A stretch of DNA of 64,000 nt, from assembly GCF_022758885.1 (NCBI RefSeq), contig NZ_JALEBH010000001.1, forward strand, positions 1,302,001 through 1,366,000, written 5' to 3'. Shown here one piece after another: positions 2,914-52,627 of the stretch. Below the pieces are notes generated by a model. The model saw only the letters and a list, made by a program, of their open reading frames with translations, searched no databases and was not told where the DNA came from. Positions within the stretch are counted from its first letter, which is position 1. Every line of letters begins with the position of its first letter. Position numbers and translations under genes: made by a program. Origin of the DNA: Sphingobium sp. BYY-5 (GTDB lineage: Bacteria; Pseudomonadota; Alphaproteobacteria; Sphingomonadales; Sphingomonadaceae).

Positions 2914-3089
2914 TAGGCCAGATCGACATTTACGGTTTTAGAGGTTTCCTACGCCGTCATGCCGGACTGGGTCCGGCATCCAGGGCCACAACGGGCGGCA
3001 CCTGCGACTCTGGATGCCGGGTCAGGCCCGGCATGACGTTGAAAATGAGGCCAAGGCTTCTGCTTTAACCTGAATGTCGATCCGCCCTA
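2914..3089. repeat. TIR-bounded ~175-bp element, copy A
   Basis: The right end reads inward as TAGGGCGGATCGACATTCAG. The left end, TAGGCCAGATCGACATTTAC, is a diverged inverted copy. The interior has two hairpins of the ATGCCGGA/TCCGGCAT type in inverted orientation, so the whole unit is a large imperfect palindrome. Related copies lie at 34651, 47056 and 51346. The outermost TAG of the right end (minus strand) is the stop codon of the NAD(P)-binding protein gene at 3087. Confidence 0.85.
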
Positions 3090-3698
3090 ATAGCCCACAG
3101 TGAACCGCGCGCGGCTGTGCTGCGGCTTTTCGATCTCGTCCGCCAGCGCGATGGCGTAATCGGCGTAGGAGATGCTGCTATTCCCCTCGGCGTCGACCAG
3201 CAGCGCGTCCTTGCCCAGGCGGAAGCTGCCCTTGCGGTCGCCCACGAAGAACAGGGCGGAGGGGGAGAGGAAGGTCCAGTCGATATCATCGACGCCGCGC
3301 AGGTAATCGAGGAAGTCCGCGCCCCGGCCGGCTTCGGCCTTATAGGCTTCGGGAAATTCGGGGGTGGTGATGAGCGGCACGCCGGGCGCAACCTCCAGGC
3401 TGCCGGCGCCGCCGACCACCAGATAGCGCGGCACGCCGGACGCCCGCACCACGCCGACCAGCGAAGCGGGATCGGTGTCGGAGAACATGACCGCGCTCAC
3501 CACCGCGTCATGGCCGCGGATCGCCTCGGTCAACGCGGCGGGTTGCTGGACATCGCCCGCGACCGCAGTGACGCCTTCGACCTCCACCGCATTCTCGGGA
3601 TGGCGCGAAATGGCCGTCACCTGATGCCCGCGCCGCGCCAGTTCCGCGCTGATTTCCTTACCCGCCCGCCCGCTGCCGCCGATGATCGCTATCTTCAT
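3087..3698 (-). CDS. NAD(P)-binding Rossmann-fold protein (atypical SDR, NAD(P)H-binding family)
   Basis: 203 residues starting MKIAIIGGSGRAG, a textbook dinucleotide-binding glycine loop, followed by GHQVTAISR and VAGDVQQPAAL. This is the layout of small SDR-like NAD(P)H-binding proteins of the YwnB/YesF type. The substrate is unknown. It is divergent from an HxlR regulator, a common pairing for redox- or electrophile-responsive oxidoreductases. The start at 3698 is chosen because the glycine loop begins there. Its stop codon lies within the end of repeat copy A. Confidence 0.82.
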   Translation of the reverse strand: MKIAIIGGSGRAGKEISAELARRGHQVTAISRHPENAVEVEGVTAVAGDVQQPAALTEAIRGHDAVVSAVMFSDTDPASLVGVVRASGVPRYLVVGGAGSLEVAPGVPLITTPEFPEAYKAEAGRGADFLDYLRGVDDIDWTFLSPSALFFVGDRKGSFRLGKDALLVDAEGNSSISYADYAIALADEIEKPQHSRARFTVGY

Positions 3699-4198: not shown

Positions 4199-4335
4199 TC
4201 CGGCTTGCCGAAATCGCTTGATCCCGTGATGACGCCATCGCATGATATGTCCACGGGGCAAGGCAATCCCCCGTTCAGGCGTTCCCCGCCCAAGCATTGC
4301 GGTTTAATCGGGCTTCATCGCCCAGGGGAACGTGC

Positions 4336-34650: not shown

Positions 34651-34842
34651 TAGGGCGGATCGACATTCACGGTTTTAGAGGCTTCTTACGCCGTCATGCC
34701 GGACTTGATCCGGCATCCAGGGCCACAAAAGGCGTCGCCTGCGACTCTGGATGCCGGATCAAGCCTGTCCTGAGCGTGTCGAAGGGTCCGGCATGACGTT
34801 GAAAATGAGGCTTCTGCTTTAACCTGAATGTCGATCGGTCCT
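34651..34842. repeat. TIR-bounded ~175-bp element, copy B
   Basis: The left end TAGGGCGGATCGACATTCAC is intact. The right end has decayed to GAATGTCGATCGGTCCT. The interior has the two ATGCCGGA/TCCGGCAT hairpins, with an insertion that reads CCTGAGCGTGTCGAAGGG inside the second one, making this copy longer. It lies in the leader region of wecC rather than at a gene end. Confidence 0.85.
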
Positions 34843-34890
34843 GGCCTGCTGCATTCACCCCATGCAGCCTGCCTCAGTCTCCTGGAGTCT

Positions 34891-46002: not shown

Positions 46003-47058
46003 ATGAATCCGCTTGAAGCGCTCCATCTTTCCCTGCCCCTTATCCAGGCGCCGATGGCCGGCGTCTCCACCCCCGACATGGCCGCCGCCGTCAGCAATGC
46101 GGGAGCGCTCGGTTCGATAGCCGTCGGTGCGGTAGAGGCGCCTGCCGCACGGGAGATGATCGCCTCCGTCCGCGCGCGCACGGCCCGCCCCTTCAACGTC
46201 AACCTCTTCGTCCATTCGCCCGCGCAGGCCAGACCGGATGTGGAGGCACGGTGGCTCACCGCGCTGAAACCGCTCTTCGCCCAGTTCGGCGGCGCTCCCC
46301 CCGCCACCTTGCGCGAAATCTATCGCAGCTTCGCGGTGGACGACGCCATGCTTGGCCTTGTCGTCGAAGCCCGCCCCGCGGTCGTCAGCTTCCATTTCGG
46401 CCTGCCGGAAGCCTGGCGGATCGCGACACTCAAGGCGGCGGGATGCATCCTCTTCGCCAGCGTCACCAGCCTGGCCGAGGCCCTCGCCGCGCGCGCGGCC
46501 GGGATCGACATGCTGGTCGCGCAAGGGTTTGAGGCTGGCGGGCATCGCGGCGTCTTCGACCCCGACGCGCCCGACGACCGGCTTGGCGCCATGGCACTCA
46601 CCCGGCTATTGGTGGAGCAGGCCGGCCTTCCCGTCATCGCGGCGGGCGGCATCATGGATGGCCGGGGAGTGCGCGCCGCGCTCGACCTGGGCGCTGTCGC
46701 GGCGCAGCTTGGCACCGCCTTCATCGGCTGTCCCGAAAGCAGCGCCGACGCCGCCTATCGCGCCGCGCTGTTCGGCCCGGCCGCCGCGCATACTGCCATG
46801 ACGCGCGCGATTTCCGGCCGTCCCGCACGCTGCCTGCCCAACCGCTTCGTCGGCTGGGGCGCGGAAACGGACCTGACGCCGCCCGACTATCCCATCGCCT
46901 ATGATGCCGGGAAAGCGCTCCATCAGCTTGCCAAGGCCCATGGCGAAAGCGGCTATGGCGCCCAATGGGCCGGCCAGGGCGCGCCGCTCGCCCGCGCGCT
47001 GCCGGCCGCCGAACTGGTCGACAGGATCAGGACGGAGATGGACGAAGGCGAATATTAG
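46003..47058 (+). CDS. Nitronate monooxygenase / 2-nitropropane dioxygenase family
   Basis: 351-residue FMN-dependent TIM barrel. LPLIQAPMAGVSTPDMAAAVSNAG at the N-terminus and VVSFHFGLPE, LVAQGFEAGGHRG and LPVIAAGGIMDGRGVRAAL in the middle are the flavin-binding signatures of the NMO/NPD family. The AGGHRG motif holds the catalytic His. It probably detoxifies nitronates. Its stop codon TAG coincides with the left end of repeat copy C. Confidence 0.88.
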   Translation: MNPLEALHLSLPLIQAPMAGVSTPDMAAAVSNAGALGSIAVGAVEAPAAREMIASVRARTARPFNVNLFVHSPAQARPDVEARWLTALKPLFAQFGGAPPATLREIYRSFAVDDAMLGLVVEARPAVVSFHFGLPEAWRIATLKAAGCILFASVTSLAEALAARAAGIDMLVAQGFEAGGHRGVFDPDAPDDRLGAMALTRLLVEQAGLPVIAAGGIMDGRGVRAALDLGAVAAQLGTAFIGCPESSADAAYRAALFGPAAAHTAMTRAISGRPARCLPNRFVGWGAETDLTPPDYPIAYDAGKALHQLAKAHGESGYGAQWAGQGAPLARALPAAELVDRIRTEMDEGEY

Positions 47059-47157
47059 CGCCAATCGGCATTCAGTTTAGGGCGGAAGCCTCAGCCTTAT
47101 TTTCAGCGTCATGCCGGCTTGGGAAGCGCTTAAAACTCAGAATGTCGATCCGCCCTA
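47056..47157. repeat. TIR-bounded element, copy C (internally deleted)
   Basis: The left end TAGCGCCAATCGGCATTCAG matches the element terminus at 16 of 20 positions; the right end is a perfect copy. Only about 100 bp long, so one of the two central hairpins has been lost. It fills the whole space between two convergent genes, and both of their TAG stop codons are the outermost bases of the element. Confidence 0.8.
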
Positions 47158-47811
47158 GCGCTCCTGATCCGGTATCACCGCGCCGAACAAGAGGGTCGGC
47201 TCACCTGCCGGCGACAGGACGATATCGCCGCCCGCCTCGGCCACCAGTTGCCGCACCATCCAGGCCGCCGCGGTGCGCGACACCAGCCCTTCGACCGGCA
47301 GCGTCCCCGCCAGCGCCGCGCGCAGATCCGGGTCCAGCACGACCTTCGGCCCTTCGGCGCGCACCACGATTTCCGTCACGCCCGGCCGGCTTTCCGCGCC
47401 GATATCCAGTTGCCCGCCCCGCACCAGCGCGTCGCCCGCGATCAGCGCCAGGTTGAGCAATATCTTGGCCGGCAACTTGCCGAGCATCTTCTCCTCGACC
47501 ATCCAGCCGACCTTGACCCGGCCCGACGCGGCATACATGCCCTCGATCGCGACCCGCGCCTCATGCGGCGGCACCGCCTCGCCAAAACCGCCCGCCGACC
47601 CGAAGGCCAGGCGGAAGAATTTCAGCTTGTTGGCCGATGTCCGCGCGCTGTCTCCCAGCAACTCCAGGCAACGCGCGCGCATTTCCGGGTCATTTTCATC
47701 CGCCATCAGTTCCAGCCCGTTGTTGAGCGCGCCGACCGGACTCAGCAGGTCATGGCACAGGCGCGAACAGAGCAGGCTGGCAAATTCGATGCTGTCGGTC
47801 GGATTGGTCAT
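47155..47811 (-). CDS. chpT: Histidine phosphotransferase ChpT
   Basis: 218 residues. The dimerisation/phosphotransfer helix pair has SLLCSRLCHDLLSPVGALNN with the phosphorylated His20, then GLELMADEND and DSARTSANKLKFFRLAFGSA. The C-terminal ATPase-like domain is degenerate, as in ChpT. ChpT passes phosphate from CckA to CtrA and CpdR, and CtrA is encoded at 18769. The start at 47811 matches the family; the frame is open further upstream. The stop TAG comes from repeat copy C. Confidence 0.9.
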   Translation of the reverse strand: MTNPTDSIEFASLLCSRLCHDLLSPVGALNNGLELMADENDPEMRARCLELLGDSARTSANKLKFFRLAFGSAGGFGEAVPPHEARVAIEGMYAASGRVKVGWMVEEKMLGKLPAKILLNLALIAGDALVRGGQLDIGAESRPGVTEIVVRAEGPKVVLDPDLRAALAGTLPVEGLVSRTAAAWMVRQLVAEAGGDIVLSPAGEPTLLFGAVIPDQER

Positions 47812-47910
47812 GCGGATGTGGATCGCCGAATAAGGGGAGGAGAAAAAAGGATGTTCCCGGCTAATGCGCCGCCGCGTCCCCCGATGCAAGCCCGGCTCGC
47901 CGCCTTTCGA

Positions 47911-48312
47911 TCACCTTATATCGAGCATCGCCTCAGTGAATCCCGCGCCGTCGCCCTCCCCCGGCCCGGCGACCCAGAGCCTGGCGCCACCGGCCGCCAC
48001 GATCAGCCACAGGCTGCCGTCGGGCGCGGCGCTGGCGGCATCGGTCTTCGACGGGACGGCGATGCCCGAAGGGTGGGAATGATAATGGCCGACAATCTGC
48101 GGCCCGCCCGCCCGCGCCGCGCGATGCGCCGCAATCAGCGCCGCCGGGTCCAGATCGAAATGGCGCGCCGGATCGGGGGCGACATTGGCGGCGGGCAGGA
48201 AAGCGTCGATCCGCCCCGCCTGCCCGAACAGCAACCCGCACACCTCATCCCTGCTCGCCGCACCCAGGGCCACGATTTGTTCCACCAGTCCTCTTGATAT
48301 CGCGATCCTCAT
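47911..48312 (-). CDS. JAMM/MPN domain (M67) metallopeptidase
   Basis: 133 residues. A Glu in RDEVCGLLFG and the JAMM signature HYHSHPSGIAVPSKTD (H-x-H-x7-S-x2-D) give the complete zinc site. Bacterial stand-alone JAMM proteins cleave isopeptide- or Cys-linked carriers in sulfur transfer, or have unknown substrates. No ThiS/MoaD-like partner is seen nearby. It lies 100 bp upstream of chpT on the same strand. Confidence 0.83.
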   Translation of the reverse strand: MRIAISRGLVEQIVALGAASRDEVCGLLFGQAGRIDAFLPAANVAPDPARHFDLDPAALIAAHRAARAGGPQIVGHYHSHPSGIAVPSKTDAASAAPDGSLWLIVAAGGARLWVAGPGEGDGAGFTEAMLDIR

Positions 48313-48329
48313 TCCTACATGCGTAGAGC

Positions 48330-49283
48330 ATGATTCCGGGGGATTCCATCATCGAAGCAGCGATCGGCGAAGCGCAGCATGGACTGCGCCTCGATCGCGC
48401 GCTGGCGGACCTGTTGCCCGACCTGTCGCGCGAGCGATTGAAGGTGCTGATCGGCGAGGGCCATGTGCAAAGCGCCCAGGCCGCGAAGATCAACGCATCG
48501 ATGAAGGTCGCGGCGGGCCAGCTTTTCAGCGTGACCCTCCCCGCCCCCACGCCGCTCGACACGGTGGCGCAGGACATACCGCTCACCATCGTCCATGAGG
48601 ATGCCGACCTGATCGTGGTGGACAAGCCTGCGGGCCTGGTCGTCCATCCGGCCGCCGGCAATCTGGACGGGACGCTGGTGAACGCGCTGCTCCATCATTG
48701 CGTCGGGCGGCTGTCGGGCATCGGCGGAGTGGCGCGGCCCGGCATCGTTCATCGCATCGACAAGGATACTTCCGGCCTGTTGGTCGTTGCAAAGACGGAC
48801 AAGGCGCATGAAGGACTCGCGCGCCAGTTCAAAGATCACAGCATCGACCGGCTCTACGCCGCGATCGTCTACGGCGTTCCAGCGCCGGGCAGCGGCACGG
48901 TCGACACCTGGATCGGCCGTTCCGACGCTGATCGAAAGAAAATGGCGGTTCATCGGGAAGGGCGCGGCAAACATGCCGTCACCCATTATCGCACGGTGGA
49001 GCGCCTCAAGGGTGCGGCGATGGTGGAATGTCGGCTGGAAACCGGCCGTACCCATCAGGTCCGCGTCCATATGGCGCATATCGGCCACCCCTTGATCGGG
49101 GACCCGGTTTACGGTAGAGAGAGAAAAGGTTTCAAATCAATACTGGAAACGCTGGGTTTCAAAAGGCAGGCATTGCACGCCAAAACGCTGGGGTTCATAC
49201 ATCCGGTAACGGACAAGCCCCTTTTGTTTCAAAGTGTGATCCCGGCCGACATGCAGGAACTGTTAAGCGAGCTTCACGTATAG
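48330..49283 (+). CDS. rluD: 23S rRNA pseudouridine synthase RluD-type
   Basis: 317 residues. An N-terminal S4 domain (RLDRALADLLPDLSRERLKV, residues about 19-80) precedes the RluA catalytic domain with the nucleophilic Asp in HRIDKDTSGLLV near residue 142. RTHQVRVHMAHIGHPLIGDPVYG near 238 follows. Presence of the S4 domain favours RluD (positions 1911/1915/1917 of 23S rRNA) over RluA. It is divergent from the JAMM gene and followed by rpoH. Confidence 0.9.
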   Translation: MIPGDSIIEAAIGEAQHGLRLDRALADLLPDLSRERLKVLIGEGHVQSAQAAKINASMKVAAGQLFSVTLPAPTPLDTVAQDIPLTIVHEDADLIVVDKPAGLVVHPAAGNLDGTLVNALLHHCVGRLSGIGGVARPGIVHRIDKDTSGLLVVAKTDKAHEGLARQFKDHSIDRLYAAIVYGVPAPGSGTVDTWIGRSDADRKKMAVHREGRGKHAVTHYRTVERLKGAAMVECRLETGRTHQVRVHMAHIGHPLIGDPVYGRERKGFKSILETLGFKRQALHAKTLGFIHPVTDKPLLFQSVIPADMQELLSELHV

Positions 49284-49366
49284 ATTTTTGGGTTTGATGA
49301 TTTTTGCGACGGCGCCTGTGACGCCTCTTCTGGGTCCCGCCGCGCATGAAAGGGAAAGGTGACGAC

Positions 49367-50278
49367 ATGGCCAAGAGCAATGTCCCCGCGGTTCCGACGC
49401 TGGGCGGTGAAGCCAGCCTCAATCGCTATCTGTCGGAAATTCGCAAATTTCCGCTGCTCACGCCTGAGCAGGAATATATGCTGGCGAAGCGCTATGAGGA
49501 GCATCAGGATCCTGAGGCTGCGGCGCAACTCGTCACCTCGCATCTGCGCCTCGTGGCCAAGATCGCCATGGGCTATCGCGGCTACGGCCTGCCGGTCAGC
49601 GAACTGATCAGCGAAGGCAATATCGGCCTGATGCAGGGCGTGAAGAAGTTCGAAGCCGATCGCGGCTTCCGCCTGGCGACCTACGCCATGTGGTGGATTC
49701 GCGCATCGATCCAGGAGTTCATCCTGCGGTCCTGGTCACTGGTGAAGATCGGCACCACCGCCGCGCAGAAGAAGCTTTTCTTCAACCTGCGCCGGATGAA
49801 GAACAATATCGAAGCGTTCGAGGACGGCGACCTGCGCCCGGAGGATGTGACCAAGATCGCGACCGATCTGGGCGTATCCGAAGAGGATGTGGTCTCGATG
49901 AACCGTCGCATGGCAATGGGTGGCGACGCATCGCTCAACGTGCCGATGCGCGAGGATGGCGAAGGTCAGTGGCAGGATTGGCTTGCCGACTCCGACCCGT
50001 TGCAGGACGAACGTGTCGCCGACGAACAGGAAAAGGTCATGCGCCACGACATGCTGGTCGAGGCGATGGACGACCTCAACGATCGCGAGAAGCACATCCT
50101 GGCCGAACGCCGTCTGGCCGAAGAGCCAAAGACGCTGGAGGAACTCTCCCAGGTCTATGGCGTGTCCCGCGAACGTGTCCGCCAGATCGAGGTCCGCGCC
50201 TTCGAAAAGCTGCAAAAGGCGATGATGCGCATCGCCGGCGACAAGCTGGGCCGGATGGCCCGCTTCGCAGCCGCCTGA
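49367..50278 (+). CDS. rpoH: RNA polymerase heat-shock sigma factor RpoH (sigma-32)
   Basis: 303 residues. It has region 2.1-2.4 (LVTSHLRLVAKIAMGYRGYG, SELISEGNIGLMQGVKKFE, YAMWWIRASIQEFILRSW), the RpoH box QKKLFFNLRRMK that distinguishes sigma-32 from other group 2 sigmas, and region 4.2 (YGVSRERVRQIEVRAFEKL). It would drive heat-shock genes such as groESL in this window. ATG 49367 gives the standard N-terminus. A terminator follows. Confidence 0.96.
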   Translation: MAKSNVPAVPTLGGEASLNRYLSEIRKFPLLTPEQEYMLAKRYEEHQDPEAAAQLVTSHLRLVAKIAMGYRGYGLPVSELISEGNIGLMQGVKKFEADRGFRLATYAMWWIRASIQEFILRSWSLVKIGTTAAQKKLFFNLRRMKNNIEAFEDGDLRPEDVTKIATDLGVSEEDVVSMNRRMAMGGDASLNVPMREDGEGQWQDWLADSDPLQDERVADEQEKVMRHDMLVEAMDDLNDREKHILAERRLAEEPKTLEELSQVYGVSRERVRQIEVRAFEKLQKAMMRIAGDKLGRMARFAAA

Positions 50279-50300
50279 TCGGACGCAAGCAACGAAAATG

Positions 50301-50331
50301 AAAAAGCCCCGGAGCGATCTGGGGCTTTTTT
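50301..50331 (+). terminator. Terminator after rpoH
   Basis: AAAAAGCCCC pairs with GGGGCTTTTTT around GGAGCGATCT. It is flanked by A and T runs and can serve both rpoH and the convergent small gene at 50350. Confidence 0.93.
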
Positions 50332-50349
50332 CATGTCATGGCGCCCGCC

Positions 50350-50655
50350 TCACCCATGCGCCCGCTTGCGCCGGGTTTCCCAGCCTTTCTTCGCGGCGAC
50401 GGAGCGGTCGGCCGCTGGTCTCCGTGCGGACGCTGCACCGCCCTTGCGCCCACCCTTGCGCGACGAGACATGGGTATCGGGTTTGCCGCGACCGGAGCCG
50501 GACAGGTTGCCGCCGCCCGAATCCTTGTTCACCGTCGCCCAGGCGCGTCGCTCGGCCTCCTTGTGGCTGACGCCGCGATCCTCATAGCTTTGCTCGATAT
50601 GCTCGGCCTTGCGCTTCTGCTTGTCGGTGTAGCTGCTCTTGTCGCCCTGGGGCAT
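50350..50655 (-). CDS. Small basic stress-type protein (often annotated plasmid stabilization protein)
   Basis: 101 residues, Lys/Arg/Gly-rich. The N-terminal MPQGDKSSYTDKQKRKAEHI, EERG-like EDRGVSHKEAERRAWATVNK and SGGGNLSGSGRGK blocks define a small family common in proteobacteria. The name plasmid stabilization protein is historical and unsupported. The C-terminal RKGGRKGGAASARR is nucleic-acid-binding in character. Convergent with rpoH. Confidence 0.75.
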   Translation of the reverse strand: MPQGDKSSYTDKQKRKAEHIEQSYEDRGVSHKEAERRAWATVNKDSGGGNLSGSGRGKPDTHVSSRKGGRKGGAASARRPAADRSVAAKKGWETRRKRAHG

Positions 50656-50773
50656 GACATCTCTCCTTGCCGTCCTGTTCCCTTCCCAACACGCGGCGCG
50701 CGTGCCGGTTCATATCGATCCGCCATCGTCACGACGATGCGGAACGGCCACCCCCGACGCGCGTTCGGTCATC

Positions 50774-51106
50774 ATGGAAGACCGCACCCTGATCGAAAGG
50801 CTGGCCCGCCATCTCGCCTCGGCGGAGCCGGACCATTGGCCCGTCCGGGTGGAGGACGCCGCCAGCATCCTCGCCCTGCTCAAGGAGCCGGACGACGCCA
50901 TGCGCGAGGCAGGCGATCCCGCCATCTGGCGCGAGATGATCGACGCGGCGCTGCGCGAACGCTGGAACGTCGCCCGGCTTGCCGCCGATGACGAAACGCC
51001 GTCAGGATCGGACGAGGAAGGCGAGATTCGCCTGACGCCCGACACCGTGCGGGGCGACCATGCCGAATGGGTTCATCTTCATCCCAAACCGGAGAAGCGA
51101 GCATGA
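50774..51106 (+). CDS. Hypothetical acidic protein
   Basis: 110 residues, helical and acidic. IERLARHLASAEPDHWP and AIWREMIDAALRERW suggest amphipathic helices; no known motif. No strong ribosome site precedes ATG 50774. It overlaps the next gene by four bases (ATGA), so the two form a coupled pair. Its function is unknown; location among stress-type genes after rpoH is the only hint. Confidence 0.6.
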   Translation: MEDRTLIERLARHLASAEPDHWPVRVEDAASILALLKEPDDAMREAGDPAIWREMIDAALRERWNVARLAADDETPSGSDEEGEIRLTPDTVRGDHAEWVHLHPKPEKRA

Positions 51107-51348
51107 AGGGGCTATTGAAACTGGCCATCGTCACCGGCCTTGGCGCCATTGTGGCCAAGGGCGCGATCAAGGGCTGGCGCGAATGGATGGGCGACGCCAG
51201 CATCGCCGACGATCGCGGGCCGGTGGGTTCTTCAGGGATCGTCCGCGACGCAGGGCCGCAACATGGCATCACGTCCCAGGAATGGGACATGGTCGACGAA
51301 CAGTCGGACGAAAGTTTCCCCGCCAGCGACCCGCCCGGAAACTTCTAG
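51103..51348 (+). CDS. Small protein with C-terminal DESFPASDPP motif
   Basis: 81 residues. A hydrophobic N-terminus (LLKLAIVTGLGAIVAKGAIK) could anchor it in the membrane. The C-terminus has the QSDESFPASDPP signature found at the tails of many small alphaproteobacterial proteins of unknown role. Its stop TAG at 51346 is the first three bases of repeat copy D, so the final residues may have been set by that insertion. Translationally coupled to the gene before it. Confidence 0.65.
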   Translation: MKGLLKLAIVTGLGAIVAKGAIKGWREWMGDASIADDRGPVGSSGIVRDAGPQHGITSQEWDMVDEQSDESFPASDPPGNF

Positions 51349-51520
51349 GGCGGATCGACATTCAGGTTAAAGCAGAATCCTCGGCGTCATTTTCATCGTC
51401 ATGCCGGGCCTGACCCGGCATCCAGAGTCGCAGGTGCCGCCCTTTGTGCCCTGGATGCCGGATCAAGTCCGGCATGACGGCTTAGGAAGCATCTAAAACC
51501 GTGAATGTCGATCCGCCCTA
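51346..51520. repeat. TIR-bounded ~175-bp element, copy D
   Basis: Both ends are perfect: TAGGGCGGATCGACATTCAG at the left and its inverse at the right. The interior carries two hairpins with GCCGGGCCTGACCCGGC and ATGCCGGATCAAGTCCGGCA. It is the best-preserved copy in the window. The left end supplies the stop codon of the upstream small gene. The orientation of the interior is opposite to copies A and B. Confidence 0.9.
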
Positions 51521-51697
51521 ATACCAAGATACATTGATGAGAACTCATGCCGGGGGGACAACAACCAATCGATCTTGATGGGCCATTCTCTACGCAGTTT
51601 GGCATAACCGCCCATTCCTTCCATTGCTCCGCTGAGGCGCGCCCTCTATGAGGCGAGGCCAAGGGCCTGACTGCTCGCAACAGGGGAATGAAAGACT

Positions 51698-52627
51698 ATG
51701 CCTTCGGGGCTGATCGCGCTGCTCGACGATGTGGCGGGCATTGCCAAGCTGACTGCGACCTCGCTGGACGATGTCGCCGCTGCGGCCGGCAGGGCCGGGT
51801 CGAAGGCCGCCGGCGTGGTGATCGACGACGCCGCCGTCACGCCCAAATATGTGATGGGCCTCACCCCGGATCGCGAACTGCCGATCATCTGGAAGATCGC
51901 CAAGGGATCGCTGCGCAATAAGCTGGTCTTCCTGCTGCCCGCCGCATTGCTGCTGTCCGCCTTCGCGCCGTGGCTGCTGCCGCCGCTGCTGATGCTGGGC
52001 GGCGCCTTCCTCTGTTTCGAGGCGGTGGAGAAGCTGCTGGAAGCATTCCAGGGCGGCCATGACGTCGCCGAGGAAGCACTGGAAACCCATAATTCCGTCG
52101 AGCTGGAAAATCAGAAGGTGGCGGGCGCCATCCGCACCGACTTCATCCTGTCGGGTGAAATCATGGCGATCGCGCTGGGCACGGTCGCAACCGAGCCGGT
52201 GTGGGAGCAGGCGATCATCCTAGTGGTCGTCGCCCTGCTCATCACGGCGGGCGTCTATGGCGTGGTCGGCCTGATCGTAAAGATGGACGATATCGGCCTT
52301 CACCTTGCCAAGCGTGAATCCGCCGGGTCGCAGGTGCTGGGCCGCAGCCTGGTGAAGGCGATGCCGATCCTGATGTCGATCCTGGCCGTGGTCGGCACGG
52401 CGGCGATGCTGTGGGTCGGCGGCGGCCTGATCGTCCATGGCCTGCATGAATTTCACTGGGATCTGATCCCCGGCGCGATCCATCATGTGGCGGAGGCCGC
52501 GACCCATGCTGTGCCCGCGATCGGCGGCTTCCTCGACTGGCTGGTCAACGCCGTCGGCGGCGCGATCGTCGGGCTGGGTGTAGGCGGGATCATCGTCGGC
52601 GTGCTGCACCTGTTCAAGAAGCATTGA
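51698..52627 (+). CDS. DUF808 family inner-membrane protein (YedI type)
   Basis: 309 residues. The N-terminal GLIALLDDVAGIAKLTATSLDD is diagnostic of DUF808, followed by IDDAAVTPKYVMGL and at least six membrane helices. The conserved KIAKGSLRNKL and HNSVELENQKVAGAIRTDFILSGE blocks are present. Function of the family is unknown. ATG 51698 is the natural start. A long palindrome follows the stop. Confidence 0.85.
   Translation: MPSGLIALLDDVAGIAKLTATSLDDVAAAAGRAGSKAAGVVIDDAAVTPKYVMGLTPDRELPIIWKIAKGSLRNKLVFLLPAALLLSAFAPWLLPPLLMLGGAFLCFEAVEKLLEAFQGGHDVAEEALETHNSVELENQKVAGAIRTDFILSGEIMAIALGTVATEPVWEQAIILVVVALLITAGVYGVVGLIVKMDDIGLHLAKRESAGSQVLGRSLVKAMPILMSILAVVGTAAMLWVGGGLIVHGLHEFHWDLIPGAIHHVAEAATHAVPAIGGFLDWLVNAVGGAIVGLGVGGIIVGVLHLFKKH

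Follow-up and report, generated by a model that had tools for sequence, protein, structure and literature searches.

A MITE family of Sphingobium with a YTAR target and frequent placement at stop codons

Copies of a short, non-coding repeat family scattered through the genome of Sphingobium sp. BYY-5 frequently begin exactly at the stop codon of the adjacent gene, with the first base of the element completing the codon TAG. The explanation that we favor, and regard as very probably correct, is that an IS5/IS427-like MITE inserts at the motif YTAR, that TAG is rebuilt upon insertion, and that stop codons serve as safe sites for the element. An IS427-like transposase would insert the non-autonomous MITE at YTAR, duplicating the central TA. 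Any YTAR whose T opens a codon is TAA or TAG by definition, and the motif is its own reverse complement, so that it can be a stop codon for either strand or serve two convergent genes simultaneously. With G as its first base and C as its last, the element would, upon insertion there, yield TAG at the gene end from TA and this G, leaving the protein unchanged; as YTA reads TAR on the opposite strand, the rebuilding would work on both strands. Insertion into an in-frame YTAR would thus be silent, and, with insertions into coding sequences and promoters being purged by selection, copies would accumulate at stop codons.

The repeat family and its target

The window, the whole stretch of 64,000 nucleotides that was analyzed (contig NZ_JALEBH010000001.1), contains four copies, for which the initial annotation, made from the sequence alone, had noted common inverted termini (copies at 2914, 34651, 47056 and 51346). 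Inverted ends GGGCGGATCGACATTCA adjoin TA in the family to which all four belong, and the terminal inverted repeat (TIR) was found at seven places in the window (up to three mismatches), compared with 0.01 expected by chance (mean of 100 shuffles). The TIR is exact at four of the eight ends of these copies, has one mismatch at one and three at two, whereas the eighth, the left end of the 47056 copy (TAGCGCCAATCGGCATTCA), is the most diverged.

The focal copy (51346 to 51520, plus strand; 171-bp element at 51348-51518, TA copies at 51346-51347 and 51519-51520) follows the gene for a conserved small protein, the DESFPASDPP protein (51067 to 51348, plus strand, possibly starting at 51103), which ends in DESFPASDPPGNF, has matches in 59 of the 61 genomes searched, the present one included, and owes its stop codon TAG (51346-51348) to the element. 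The right end of a minus-strand copy (2914 to 3089; 172-bp element at 2916-3087, TA copies at 2914-2915 and 3088-3089) likewise gives the minus-strand TAG (3087-3089) of the gene for an NAD(P)-binding protein (3087 to 3698, minus strand, start uncertain; Pfam NAD_binding_10). A short minus-strand copy (47056 to 47157; 98-bp element at 47058-47155) lies between convergent genes and gives TAG at both ends, at 47056-47058 on the plus strand for nitronate monooxygenase (46003 to 47058, plus strand) and at 47155-47157 on the minus strand for a chpT-like histidine phosphotransferase (47155 to 47811, minus strand, with a longer start possible at 47889; Pfam HPTransfase). The remaining copy (34651 to 34843, plus strand; 189-bp element at 34653-34841) is located away from any stop codon, and its right-hand TA has degenerated to TG, as read on the plus strand. 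Of the six window ends that face the 3' end of a gene, four are positioned exactly at the stop, and the four in-frame TAG codons reported initially were all correct. Pfam domains reach within 9-14 residues of the C terminus in three of the four proteins concerned, the fourth having no Pfam match. No Rfam model reached its gathering threshold at the four copies; elsewhere in the window, at 4253-4300, an Rfam chrB-b RNA (RF03086) scores above the gathering score.

In the complete genome (4.70 Mb, two contigs), we identified 151 TIR ends with up to three mismatches, compared with four for the reversed pattern. Curation drew on the best 100 of these, namely, all ends with up to two mismatches and 27 with three (the remaining 51 have three mismatches), and the list was completed with a sequence model (R1) built from eight copies, resulting in 48 copies, 42 of them two-ended and 6 one-ended. 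This count leaves out interior-only matches at C1:326429 and 1363064, a copy with deleted ends at C1:622853, where the upstream frame appears, by eye, to stop at the TAG of the copy, isolated weak TIR matches at 76721, 1498081, 2323795 and 2532594, and further isolated three-mismatch matches. The repeats are short and multicopy, with inverted ends and a target duplication and without a transposase gene, and form a non-coding MITE family with 17-bp inverted ends, a TA duplication and a YTAR target. The sizes of the copies are discrete, the shortest being ~96-98 bp long, whereas longer ones, of 117, 171-172 and ~195 bp, have one or two internal hairpins together with an extra repeat; a 142-bp form has the same ends and a different interior. 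The discrete sizes appear to stem from nested growth, with a CATG-flanked palindrome, CCGGATCAGGTCCGG, and an TCGAAGGG-type repeat found inside longer copies (L001, L002, L003, L004 and others).

TA is kept on both sides in 30 of the 42 two-ended copies. Joining the flanks of these 30 copies yields CTAG in 12 cases, CTAA in 7, TTAG in 6, TTAA in 3, and TTAT and ATAG in one each, that is, YTAR in 28 of the 30, from which it follows that the duplication is TA and the target YTAR, with G as the first and C as the last base of the element. Insertion at TA, as originally proposed, is thus corroborated.

The parent insertion sequence and known repeats

The same ends delimit an 850-bp element in another Sphingobium genome (G019), where it is placed at the TAG of an upstream gene. 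The transposase of this element spans two frames, putatively joined by frameshifting, the two parts of which match NF033580 (transpos_IS5_3) at 4e-48 and 2e-38, and contains the Pfam domains DDE_Tnp_1 and DUF4096. When 94 genomes of the genus were searched, the matches listed included transposases at least 72% identical to it in seven genomes; one locus fetched from each of these carries the TIR, at both ends in five (mismatch penalty 0.5-2.5), and none of the 23 other transposase loci fetched (at most 57% identical) has the TIR, the best penalty being 3.5. The five two-ended parents are 850, 819, 848, 850 and 850 bp long, the 819-bp copy falling below the range of ~830-865 bp expected of IS427-like elements; all five have TA on both sides, and two of them are located at a stop codon. 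Since these seven other genomes carry IS5-type transposase genes bounded by the same ends, the parent is, as judged from its sequence, an IS5-family, IS427-like insertion sequence rather than a member of IS630. A parent of the Tc1/IS630 type, suggested in the initial annotation, would fit the TA duplication, yet the transposase found with matching TIRs is of the IS5 type and the target is YTAR, so that this candidate was rejected. The search for a transposase with matching TIRs that had been recommended along with it was successful in relatives (the seven genomes, among the matches listed) but not in the present genome, which has five weaker transposase matches (best 3e-29) and no recognizable ~850-bp parent among the best 100 of its 151 TIR ends. 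Copies of the MITE would have been moved in trans by such a parent. A YTAR target is known for the IS427 group.

Elements of the IS427 group (IS5 family), for example ISPaes1 and ISPpa6 of Paracoccus, are 832-865 bp long, with inverted repeats of 13-21 bp and duplications of 2 bp (4 bp in one), and some members of the group have two overlapping frames (PMC3281130). The parent identified here resembles these elements: three of its five two-ended copies are 850 bp long, the inverted ends match, TA lies on either side, and NF033580 covers both parts of a two-frame transposase. The term "stop codon" occurs zero times in that paper, the available text of which does not describe rebuilding of stop codons on both strands. 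The Correia/NEMIS, RUP and ERIC repeats, for one of which, RUP, movement by an IS transposase has been proposed, are similar to the present MITE in being small repeats with inverted ends and terminal TA, but belong to other hosts and families; in this comparison, made by description, the available text mentions stop codons inside the repeats and not as targets (PMC2229807). The CIR repeats of Caulobacter are also alphaproteobacterial, intergenic and stem-loop forming, but differ from the present MITE in having a GANTC methylation motif and in being tabulated as repeats that lack terminal inverted repeats, according to the available text of the same source (PMC2229807). No report of stop-codon-regenerating MITEs was found in the literature searched, the coverage of which extends to few subscription journals.

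Placement at stop codons and empty sites

Genes around the copies were called with a home-made codon-usage model trained on the copy loci. Among the 66 ends that face the 3' end of a gene, the stop codon lies exactly at TA+G in 28 and at least three bases upstream in 38, and no frame runs into the element, so the claim that the first G of the element recreates TAG extends well beyond the window. TA is kept at 27 of the 28 stop ends, the stop being TGA at the single changed end, compared with 47 of the 62 other ends (p = 0.018, a difference to which the definition of the class contributes); in relatives, the corresponding counts are 40 of 40 and 68 of 78. In total, 22 of the 48 copies have at least one stop end, and 6 have both ends at stops, between convergent genes. 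Where TA is present on both sides of a copy, the codon that a stop end occupied before insertion reconstructs to TAA or TAG in 22 of 23 cases in this genome and in 34 of 35 in relatives; one of the two stop ends of copy 1 reconstructs to TAT.

The same placement was observed in 24 other genomes of the genus, in which 37 of 59 copies and 40 of 90 facing ends are at a stop and one end is read through. The 59 copies comprise 34 of the 142-bp type and 25 paired copies among the matches listed, leaving out G018:C11 (at a contig edge) and G017:C1:548-715; one insertion is common to two genomes (G016 and G022), so that 58 of the 59 are independent, and the edges of one copy (L217) are poorly resolved. 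Beyond Sphingobium and the MAG M0605, an exact TIR search in other alphaproteobacteria placed 28 of 44 facing ends at a stop, the search pattern including TAG and hence favoring ends that kept it. The set of named genomes consists of 80 of 120 loci, with 6 of 87 exact TIR matches having too little flank. Among all ends with enough flank, whether or not they face the 3' end of a gene, stop ends account for 5 of 9 in Novosphingobium, 6 of 9 in Caulobacter, 4 of 6 in Sphingosinicella, 7 of 17 in Sphingomonas and 2 of 2 in Phenylobacterium, as well as 0 of 2 in Agrobacterium and 0 of 1 each in Aureimonas, Azorhizobium and Rhizobium. The enrichment at stop codons that had been predicted therefore holds in this genome, in the 24 other Sphingobium genomes and in other genera, although much of it is expected from the positions of YTAR, with about twofold odds left locally.

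Comparison with insert-free loci in relatives provides a view of the sites themselves. At the nitronate monooxygenase/chpT junction, 4 of the 19 relatives with both genes are insert-free and have stops that overlap as one YTAR (TTAG or TTAA); the other relatives differ in spacing, and the three closest ones do not have double stops. In one genome (G063, locus L111), another repeat, GTCATTGCGAGCG..., lies between the two stops of this junction, which may be an insertion hot spot. Of 14 relatives, 5, which include the three closest, show CTAG, TTAG or CTAA double stops at the site of copy 34. In G020 (L190), the two stops at this site are both TAG and are separated by another, different short insert with inverted repeats, GGCCGGATCGATTTTGACATTCG..., which may be a diverged relative that settled at the same position. 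At the site of copy 31, TTAA double stops are found in 2 of 27 relatives and stops 3-30 bases apart in 20 of 27; the alignments extend to the final residue of the left gene in 26 of 27 relatives and to that of the right gene in 27 of 27. The prediction that empty sites would show stop codons is accordingly upheld, TAA or TAG being found at reconstructed or real empty sites.

The C termini are conserved as well. The NAD(P)-binding protein gene (copy 14) ends at the same last residue in 29 of 29 fetched orthologues, and 26 of 29 fetched orthologues of the focal small gene (copy 17) end with GN[FY] and the stop, the other 3 being a few residues longer. Most orthologues of these two genes, including those in the closest relatives, have TGA as the stop, so that a prior change to TAA or TAG must be assumed for both. 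The orthologue of the focal gene in G017 ends at a copy with a different interior, which suggests, from the sequences compared, an independent landing on the same stop.

Directly next to the focal copy lies a second, unrelated MITE, TACCAAGATACATTG... (51522-51604), which occupies, with its TAA duplication (51519-51521 and 51605-51607), positions 51519 to 51607 on the plus strand. This family, with TACCAAGATACATTGATGAGAA ends, has 18 ends in the present genome (G000), two of which belong to a single copy, and 3-bp duplications that are mostly TAA or TTA; TAA is itself a stop codon. Of the 17 distinct copies, 3 are at a stop codon, compared with 22 of 48 for the main family, but the target differs, so that it offers a rough control only. 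With the focal element removed, the left TAA of the second MITE would fall on the stop of the small gene, making it the fourth such copy.

Strength of the stop preference and its implications

Could the coincidence of element ends and stop codons arise trivially? Random insertion could truncate the 3' parts of genes, TAG being merely the place where the truncated frames end. An intact copy offers TAG at both ends, so that about one-third of random frames would stop there, and one end of copy 1 may be an example. The remaining frames, however, should enter the element, yet this is seen for 0 of 66 ends here, 1 of 90 in relatives and 0 of 63 in the named genomes, and most orthologues share the same last residue; truncation was rejected as a general explanation and has a vanishingly small probability. 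It is also very improbable that spurious frames called in error happen to end at the element: the caller was home-made and based on codon usage, and a few of the genes are short (54, 63 and 81 aa), but 23 of the 28 stop-end genes match a Pfam family, and the 81-aa gene is conserved in the genus.

A more demanding question is how far the availability of the target accounts for the pattern. At the loci of this genome, YTAR sites outside the elements number 40 at stops, 228 in intergenic regions and 104 in coding sequences, these background loci being the ones that surround element copies. Copies at stops make up 15 of 23 in the convergent class (background 19 of 48) and 6 of 15 in the tandem class (background 21 of 155) in this genome, and 27 of 35 (15 of 59) and 10 of 20 (18 of 86), respectively, in relatives; for stops versus intergenic YTAR of the same gene orientation, the Mantel-Haenszel pooled odds ratio is 4.8 (p = 1e-9). 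In a local comparison of the stop with the region 3-60 nt downstream, the ends are distributed 28:19 and the YTAR sites 39:56 here (odds ratio 2.1, p = 0.029), and 40:22 and 30:39 in relatives (odds ratio 2.4, p = 0.012). YTAR positions and gene architecture hence explain much of the spike at stops, and a modest excess stays, twofold in odds under the local null and fivefold under the class null, which a simple model of YTAR availability leaves unexplained.

The excess might signify that the transposase, or the context of gene ends (terminators, transcription), actively favors stops beyond YTAR, which we consider unlikely. The over-use of stops just described speaks for it, as does the frequency of double-stop copies: 9 of the 58 copies between convergent genes have a stop at each end, versus 1 overlapping YTAR stop pair among 57 unoccupied convergent gene pairs (p = 0.016, or 0.032 once one orthologous pair is removed), although, among the nine copies, copy 1 yields a stop on only one strand when reconstructed and copy 38 is not reconstructable. 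Yet, when YTAR sites are counted from the stop out to 60 nt, 41-43% of them are already the stop codon itself (39 of 95 and 30 of 69), selection against insertions into terminators or promoters could yield the same excess, and any genes missed by the caller would inflate the non-stop background, which was taken from the loci around the copies. Alternatively, selection might keep copies because the hairpin serves usefully as a 3' end or, between convergent genes, as an insulator in both directions, to which we assign a similarly low probability. The fold of the focal copy reaches -106.5 kcal/mol (z = -11 versus shuffles), convergent genes flank 58 of the 100 classifiable copies, the insertion that looks common to G016 and G022 sits at the same double stop, and the focal-gene orthologue of G017 also ends at a copy; but avoidance of promoters alone predicts the convergent bias, and the two copies scanned are without a T-tract terminator, the three terminator-like sites in 46900-51700 all falling outside the 47056 and 51346 copies, strong as the stem is. 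A study of the non-random placement of intergenic insertion sequences by Plague, from 2010, reportedly described an orientation bias of surviving insertions and dealt with orientation, not with exact placement at stops; such an orientation bias is seen here too. The further proposal that the element specializes in stop codons, with a target motif and a terminal base matched so as to make them, chiefly the overlapping stops of convergent genes, its main habitat, that it is attracted to or retained at them beyond the availability of targets, and that it would separate overlapping gene ends by a hairpin, is doubtful.

The favored explanation, insertion at YTAR with rebuilding of TAG and survival at stops as safe sites, would amount to a rule for damage-free entry into a gene-dense genome: the target motif is itself a stop on either strand, and the end base of the element rebuilds that stop. 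Under this rule, which lends itself to testing in any genome with IS5/IS427-type elements, an element could settle between tightly packed genes while the proteins remain unaltered. Such insertion would explain why repeats are found exactly at the ends of genes and would constitute one source of TAG stop codons and of newly separated convergent genes.
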